Shown: positions 9,638 through 10,545 of the stretch, piece after piece
Numbering within the stretch: position 1 is the first letter of the stretch
How the letters are laid out: every line of letters starts with the position of its first letter
NCBI GenBank assembly: GCA_945876945.1
Contig: CAMCQE010000033.1
Location: forward strand, 1-32,843
Reading direction: 5' to 3'
Source: Klebsiella pneumoniae
Lineage (GTDB): Bacteria > Pseudomonadota > Gammaproteobacteria > Ga0077536
DNA: 32,843 nt
Made by a program: the position numbers and the translations under genes
The notes under the pieces: generated by a model
Databases searched by the model: none
What the model was told of the DNA's origin: nothing
The model's input: only the letters and a program-made list of their open reading frames with translations

Positions 9638-9732
9638 GGGCATGACATTTAGCGCTGCCCCTTCAGGCTTGCCTGCCCGCCTGGCGGGGCGCTTTGAACG
9701 CGTTCAGGCCGGCAATCGATAGAGGTGCAGTC

Positions 9733-10512
9733 ATGGCTGATCCGGTGTTGAGCAAAGAGCCTGTGTTCGTGTTTGGTGCCAGAGTGTCTGGTTCCCATCG
9801 CGAGAGCAGCGCAGCCGTGGCTCAACGCTTTCATGGCGCCGAGTCAACGGTTGCCGAGGGCCGTACCGGCAATGCTTACGCCATTCCCCACCGCGGCGCC
9901 GACGGCAAAATGCTCACGCCATCGATGCTTTCCAATCACGTGCAGGCCTTCCGTCGCTATGCCGCCGGCAACGGGGGCACCGCCTTCCAGATCGTGCGCT
10001 TTGGCTGTGAGCCGGATGGTTTGGGCGACGACCGGATGTCGGAGATGTTCCGGGCTTTGCCGCGTAACTGCTTCCTGCCGGGGGTGTGGCAACGCTTGCT
10101 GGCGCCGGAAACCCCGGCCCGCGTGCTGGTGTTTGATCCTGAAGGTTTGCTGCGTGCTGTCGCGGGGCAAGTCTCGCTGTACCAGTATCTGACTGCGCGG
10201 CGCGCGGAATGGCGCACGGAGGAGTTTGAGCTGGTGAGCGTAGGAGGAGGATTCGGCGTGGCCGCAACGGCCGCCGTGGCCCGCAAACTGAAGGCCCGGC
10301 ATCGGATTCTGGGGGAGAACGCCGCTTACTACGGGGCGCAGTCGGCGGTGGCGGCAGAGATGAAAGCGGTGTGGTTTAGCACCCATCTTCTCAGCGTGGC
10401 CAATCCCGATCGGACTGCCGACAACAGCCACGTTCGGATGCTGTCTTTTGCCGCCCGCGACGGCTTGAAGTGCGAGGATCTGCGCTTAACCGACAACACC
10501 GAGAGCACCTGA
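9733..10512 (+). CDS. Two-domain protein: A1S_2505-like N-terminus, possible SLOG-like C-terminus
   Basis: Protein of 259 aa starting at ATG 9733, chosen over a TTG at 9694 because AGAGG at 9721-9725 precedes it. Residues 10-120 (VFVFGARVSGSH, GRTGNAYAIPHRGADGK, FQIVRFGCEPDGLGDDRM, PRNCFLPGVW) parallel the short A1S_2505-type phage-associated proteins, which carry FGSNLAGRHG, GNSYAIPTKD, TRIGCGLAGY and P.N..LP..W. Here the N-terminal Ser-Asn and Arg-His-Gly of that family are changed. Residues 129-250 are a second domain with VLVFDPEGLL and VSVGGGFGVAATAAVA, faintly like SLOG/DUF2493 nucleotide-binding folds; this second assignment is speculative. No signal peptide, so cytoplasmic. It stands alone between a 95-base gap and a terminator. 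Function unknown. Confidence 0.75.
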   Translation: MADPVLSKEPVFVFGARVSGSHRESSAAVAQRFHGAESTVAEGRTGNAYAIPHRGADGKMLTPSMLSNHVQAFRRYAAGNGGTAFQIVRFGCEPDGLGDDRMSEMFRALPRNCFLPGVWQRLLAPETPARVLVFDPEGLLRAVAGQVSLYQYLTARRAEWRTEEFELVSVGGGFGVAATAAVARKLKARHRILGENAAYYGAQSAVAAEMKAVWFSTHLLSVANPDRTADNSHVRMLSFAARDGLKCEDLRLTDNTEST

Positions 10513-10527
10513 GGCAGCGCTACTCTG

Positions 10528-10545
10528 GCGGCTTCAGCCGCTTTT
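10528..10545 (+). terminator. Rho-independent terminator
   Basis: GCGGC (10528-10532), loop TTCA, GCCGC (10537-10541), then TTTT. It starts 16 bases after the stop of the plus-strand gene ending at 10512 and separates it from the convergent ybdD-cstA transcript. There is no T-run on the minus side, so it should act in one direction. Confidence 0.7.

Follow-up and report, generated by a model that had tools for sequence, protein, structure and literature searches.

A chromosomal Macro-SLOG fusion protein with altered pockets, a candidate re-specialised binder of a nucleotide-type ligand

The gene described here lies in a window of 32,843 nucleotides (the whole stretch of DNA that was analysed) and encodes a protein of two predicted domains, a macrodomain followed by a SLOG domain. 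This chromosomally encoded protein is related to the Macro-SLOG proteins that occur in phages and plasmids, for which a role in sensing or processing ADP-ribose-derived signals is predicted. Computation gives the two folds, the loss of canonical pocket residues, purifying selection on the gene and a fixed chromosomal slot. The reading that we favour, with a confidence slightly above even, is that the protein would have become re-specialised as a binder, sensor or sink of a nucleotide-type ligand, in place of the ancestral hydrolase. The coordinates of all features are collected in Table 1.

The gene and its chromosomal slot

The open reading frame begins with an ATG that has a Shine-Dalgarno-like GAGGTG upstream. 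An in-frame TTG at 9694, 13 codons 5′ of this ATG, could give a longer protein; the ATG has the better ribosome site and agrees with the closest homologue. The sequence landmarks quoted in the initial annotation, namely VFVFGARVSGSH, GNAYAIP, RFGCEPDGLGDD, PRNCFLPGVW and VSVGGGFGVAATA, are all present in the product. A Pfam search with the window protein returned zero matches at E-values up to 10, macro models and YAcAr included, and the same search on 24 aligned homologues gave isolated weak matches only, the best being to DUF7931 in one member (E 4e-4). These 24 homologues keep the full length as a single unit. Between the window gene and a 93%-identical relative, dN/dS is 0.10, and in four other pairs it is 0.10–0.25, with the N-terminal half (N-half) evolving faster than the C-terminal half (C-half) in four of the five pairs. 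The gene is still maintained by purifying selection, and the value of about 0.10 rules out a pseudogene; taken together with full-length conservation and the A1S_2505 score given below, it is therefore a real gene.

The flanking block reads, in order, aminotransferase, 2-hydroxyacid dehydrogenase, redoxin, PLP decarboxylase, SIMPL, DUF4919, the Macro-SLOG gene, YbdD-like, CstA, FTHFS and CTP synthase. A housekeeping region had been proposed from the sequence, and this is borne out both by the neighbours that could be assigned (Pyridoxal_deC, SIMPL, DUF4919, Sel_put (YbdD-like) and CstA) and by the neighbourhood survey, which gave a conserved block. In two genera the gene occupies exactly one slot, between the DUF4919 and YbdD-like genes, and in six relatives (G003, G004, G005, G008, G027 and G033) the block is intact, DUF4919 adjoins the YbdD-like gene and the Macro-SLOG gene has left no trace. 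The simplest reading of this history is that a resident gene was cleanly lost several times, gain by transfer into the one slot being a possible but less simple alternative. An origin of the locus in a prophage or island is ruled out by the conserved flanking block and the empty sites.

The initial annotation had also described a stand-alone gene with its own terminator. The first description holds in so far as the neighbourhood comparison found no partner gene conserved across all lineages, but a co-oriented DUF4919 gene precedes it at a gap of about 95 bp. As for the second, a perfect 5-bp hairpin, GCGGC-TTCA-GCCGC, followed by TTTT can be read by eye downstream of the stop codon, but it is weak and was not reported by a consensus terminator scan.

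Distribution and relationship to phage and plasmid proteins

The window's own genome holds one copy of the protein. Across its order, 18 of 36 genomes carry full-length relatives at 26–93% identity, for a total of 25 copies, some of them as tandem pairs; three more families within the class (G154, G374 and G105/G234) also have full-length relatives. Among 398 sampled genomes of the phylum, besides the window, only short or differently continued A1S_2505 proteins were found. Tandem Macro-SLOG duplicates are seen in four genomes: L017 (G023:C74), L018 (G017:C279), L007 (G016:C54) and L020 (G030:C63); the second copy of L020 has lost loop 1 of its macrodomain.

The window gene belongs to a separate chromosomal clade. 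In a tree of the N-half, a branch with support of 98/84, present in 99% of bootstrap trees, sets the 28 clade members apart from 67 rows of viral, plasmid or other bacterial origin. The tree is unrooted and its nearest plasmid row sits on a long branch; the earlier suggestion of capture from a phage is not carried by it, since it gives one separate clade with neither a source nor a direction (phage to chromosome or the reverse).

The N-terminal half is a predicted macrodomain

The assignment of the N-half to the A1S_2505 type was confirmed by NCBIfam NF049995 (A1S_2505_Nterm), which matches residues 11–119 over the whole model (positions 1–109 of 109) with 82.6 bits against a curated cut-off of 45 bits; the A1S_2505 part also matches PHROG 2072 (E 2e-23). 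Matches to the family occur in 328–368 of 50,697 phage records, its members include gp14 of phage N4 (EF056009.1, 4157-4498; H168), and its NCBIfam and PHROGs entries carry no function. The initial annotation had missed that this domain is, by its predicted fold, a macrodomain, as well as that fusions of this kind are already known.

Modelled alone from 22 clade and 44 viral sequences (mean pLDDT 89.4), the N-half was aligned by VIA-align 2 with DarG 5m31 (Z 10.4, rmsd 2.7 over 112) and TARG1 4j5r (Z 10.1, rmsd 2.6 over 111). Every one of the 50 rows listed for it is either a macrodomain or a serine hydrolase designed on a macrodomain scaffold. With the same model, Foldseek against the PDB placed TARG1 structures best (E 0.013–0.024, probability 0.98–0.99) and DarG among the next. 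The full-length model, built from clade sequences only, gave no PDB match below 0.001 in Foldseek, and its residues 2–118 matched TARG1 2l8r (Z 9.7, rmsd 4.8); it was VIA-align and the modelling of the N-half alone that brought out both domains. In sequence comparisons, a profile of the 44 viral A1S_2505 proteins searched against the PDB had macrodomains as most of its ten sub-threshold matches, and aligned the lysine of the PTK motif with the TK of TARG1, whose lysine is K84, the catalytic residue. When the full clade profile was run against PDB sequences, only chance matches came back. On the strength of these models, the A1S_2505 part, folded alone, is predicted to be a macrodomain. The VIA-align alignments of the N-half to solved macrodomains mostly start at chain residues 12–28, past the first strand, the element that in canonical macrodomains bears an Asp in contact with the adenine; because of this, ADP-ribose binding by the A1S_2505 family is not assured.

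Depositors of some phage homologues had used names in keeping with this fold ('macro domain Poa1p family', 'O-acetyl-ADP-ribose deacetylase 1', 'ADP-ribosylglycohydrolase'). Annotations of the N4 gp14 homologues disagree, ranging over hypothetical, macro domain, ADP-ribosyltransferase and ADP-ribosylglycohydrolase. On a viral contig, L089:1483-2898 (IMGVR_UViG_3300010965_000002), the A1S_2505 macrodomain is fused to an ATPase of the DNA polymerase III clamp-loader type (PF13177, E 4e-30). AdfB of phage ICP1 was considered as a possible lead and dropped, relatedness not having been shown.

The C-terminal half is a predicted SLOG domain

A SLOG-like second half had been suspected from the sequence, and the comparisons support this. 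In the full model, VIA-align matches the C-terminal domain (residues 114–257) to YpsA 2nx2 (Z 11.7, rmsd 2.9 over 124), ThsA 6lhx (Z 9.1) and DprA 3maj (Z 8.2). An hhalign comparison of the clade alignment with 11 YAcAr (DUF2493) SLOGs from plasmids and phages gave E 4e-9 at a probability of 96%, and the C-half alone gave E 6.5e-9, both being values for a single pair and not those of a database search. A PDB search with the C-half profile yielded a sub-threshold match to Tex, and tblastn of the C-half alone against the phage records gave zero matches. Residues 127–257 are thus modelled as a Rossmann-like domain of the SLOG type.

Both pockets depart from the canonical residues

The altered motif noted at the outset is real: FGSN is found in 44 of 44 viral relatives, and the window protein reads FGAR at that place. 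The position aligned with K84 of TARG1 carries no lysine in any of the 28 clade homologues; its arginine is not invariant, with L, A or T in other members. Y49 and G43/G46 are still conserved in the macro half of the clade.

In the SLOG half, as judged from 11 canonical SLOGs at the positions that could be aligned, the invariant G, R, D, G, G, D, R, N and G at window positions 135, 137, 141, 170, 174, 176, 208, 209 and 229 are all replaced, and one further invariant position retains its Ala. The invariant positions of the GxxxGxD loop and the RN motif are replaced in nearly all clade members too, and several canonical pocket positions vary within the clade. At the same time, the clade has fixed residues of its own: D135 and E209 occupy former invariant ligand-loop positions, and S169 (26 of 28) and T217 (25 of 28, the remainder Ser) are conserved besides the residues of Table 1. 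These new conserved residues, read from the alignment, may suggest re-specialisation rather than decay, other pocket positions being variable.

Table 1. Features of the Macro-SLOG gene and its product (window coordinates)
Feature	Position	Strand	Basis or comparison
Macro-SLOG fusion gene	9733..10512	+	259 aa; AlphaFold mean pLDDT 91.6
A1S_2505 family domain, predicted macrodomain (TARG1/DarG-like), residues 11-119	9763..10089	+	NF049995 E 2e-23; DarG 5m31 and TARG1 4j5r folds
Altered macro loop 1, residues 14-27: FGARVSGSHRESSA, against FGSNxxGxHGxGxA of viral relatives	9772..9813	+	comparison with viral sequences
R54, at the place of the PTK lysine aligned with TARG1 K84	9892..9894	+	Lys in 43/44 viral relatives, Arg in 19/22 of the clade
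Altered macro loop 2, residues 91-96: GCEPDG, against GCGLAG of viral relatives	10003..10020	+	comparison with viral sequences
Predicted SLOG domain (YAcAr/YpsA-like) with non-canonical pocket, residues 127-257	10111..10503	+	YpsA 2nx2; hhalign E 4e-9
D135, replacing an invariant SLOG Gly	10135..10137	+	26/28 in clade
Residues 168-180, VSVGGGFGVAATA, instead of the SLOG nucleotide-binding loop VSGxARGADxLGE	10234..10272	+	SLOG alignment
E209, replacing the invariant Asn of the SLOG RN motif	10357..10359	+	Glu 25/28, Asp 3/28 in clade
T228, in the loop that reads GxSxGT in canonical SLOGs	10414..10416	+	26/28 in clade
Possible weak intrinsic terminator, GCGGC TTCA GCCGC TTTT	10528..10545	+	read by eye

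Interpretation and alternatives

We propose that a small nucleotide-type ligand would be bound in one or both pockets; by analogy with related domains this would most likely be an ADP-ribose-type molecule, either ADP-ribose or a cyclic or linear derivative of it. The lysine chemistry proposed for macrodomains of the TARG1/DarG type would not be used by the window protein, and a binder or sensor is favoured over a hydrolase because this lysine and the glycine-rich loop of the SLOG half have been lost. The loss of that loop and the gain of acidic residues could also mean that the SLOG half binds no phosphate-containing ligand at all. A bolder version of the proposal, which we hold to be doubtful, is that one gammaproteobacterial lineage domesticated a Macro-SLOG module on its chromosome. 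Both pockets would have been rebuilt around new conserved residues (in the SLOG half D135, E209 and T228) to recognise a ligand different from those of all described Macro and SLOG proteins, and the protein would be a new intracellular receptor of a nucleotide signal.

The initial annotation had envisaged an enzyme that senses or processes a nucleotide or nucleotide derivative. Such a role fits both folds, and the part that sits poorly with the data is the word enzyme: the lysine aligned with K84 is lost, as are the GCGLAG loop and all the canonical SLOG pocket residues, and R54 varies across the clade. The protein could nevertheless still break down an ADP-ribose-derived metabolite or signal, as a hydrolase through its macrodomain or a glycosidase through its SLOG domain, if catalysis had shifted to other residues (e.g. 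R54 with D135/E209). In favour of this, macrodomain subclasses differ in their catalytic residues, the SLOG pocket loops have newly fixed acidic residues, and the macro half retains Y49 and G43/G46; on balance we regard an enzyme as unlikely. The disappearance of both canonical pockets, the faster evolution of the N-half and the variability of several SLOG pocket positions would suit a protein that binds no ligand, in which the two folds serve as a rigid scaffold or protein–protein interaction module around decayed pockets. What speaks against such a scaffold is that polar residues in or next to what were the SLOG ligand loops (D135, E209 and T228) are kept in 26–28 of 28 members, Asp being counted with Glu, and this conservation is not expected from plain decay; a scaffold role seems to us decidedly unlikely.

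A gene for defence or counter-defence, resembling Thoeris or the antitoxin of DarTG and situated by chance in a housekeeping region, would explain why the SLOG of ThsA and the macrodomain of DarG are among the best fold matches, and the patchy clade with a slot cleanly empty in six relatives is a pattern often seen with accessory genes. Its surroundings tell against it, for no SIR2, TIR, ART or toxin gene adjoins the Macro-SLOG gene, its chromosomal position is fixed with no island or prophage, its own genome holds no TIR_2 protein, and PADLOC gave no model match of note for the gene and its sampled neighbours. A link to Thoeris in particular was rejected, as the own genome lacks TIR_2 and TIR_2 carriers do not follow gene carriers across the order. 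A defence function is thus very improbable in our view.

The chromosomal branch offers a case in which to ask whether Macro-SLOG modules that process signals as enzymes can become receptors. The 'phage non-structural protein' family A1S_2505, with PHROG 2072 and N4 gp14, also gains a predicted fold and a likely chemical theme, and the Macro-SLOG architecture, so far discussed for viruses, gains a chromosomal branch with altered pockets.

Comparison with known systems

Iyer et al. (2022, PMC9503650) report viral SLOG domains fused to Macro and NADAR domains and predict for them a role in the sensing or processing of ADP-ribose derivatives, and the SLOG of ThsA binds isomers of cADPR (PMC9503650, PMC11204291). 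Fusions of the present kind were found on plasmids, where the proteins L022, L023 and L025 (Rhodanobacter, Acidiphilium and Halomonas) join A1S_2505 (NF049995) to YAcAr (PF10686) and a Tolypothrix plasmid protein, L024, joins it to YpsA (PF06908), as well as on the viral contig L081, which has A1S_2505 with YpsA. The plasmid proteins are annotated 'SLOG family protein', with motifs intact. A relative from the same class, L052:1165-2346, holds DUF4326, A1S_2505 and a YAcAr SLOG in one protein, and this three-domain protein ties A1S_2505 to the DUF4326/Macro/SLOG network of PMC9503650.

With the Macro-SLOG and DUF4326-Macro-SLOG proteins of caudoviruses, plasmids and giant viruses (PMC9503650), the window protein shares the domains and their order (L022, L023 and L025; L081; and L052, with DUF4326). 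Those proteins keep FGSNxxGxHGxGxA, PTK, the GCGLAG-type loop and GxxxGxD/RN (L022 and L023, others with variations), whereas the window clade has lost them, and the latter is chromosomal and syntenic over two genera. Within the A1S_2505 family (NF049995, PHROG 2072, N4 gp14), the window protein lies above the cut-off over the whole model; the phage members, on the other hand, are mostly single domains of about 110–135 residues with intact motifs, in contrast to its two domains and altered motifs. TARG1/OARD1 and the DarG macrodomains are the closest solved folds to the N-half, but the window protein has R54 at the lysine position, alignments begin past the first strand, and DarT is absent among the assigned neighbours. 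The YpsA/YAcAr SLOGs and the SLOG of ThsA are the closest in solved fold and profile to the C-half, but the Pfam YAcAr model is unmatched, the canonical pocket motif is missing, and the SIR2 effector domain is absent. Thoeris (ThsA/ThsB) consists of a SIR2 effector with a TIR partner, whereas the window protein has no SIR2 domain and its genome no TIR_2. The Macro-SLOG fusion is thus an architecture already described, of which the chromosomal clade, with its altered pockets, forms a distinct variant.
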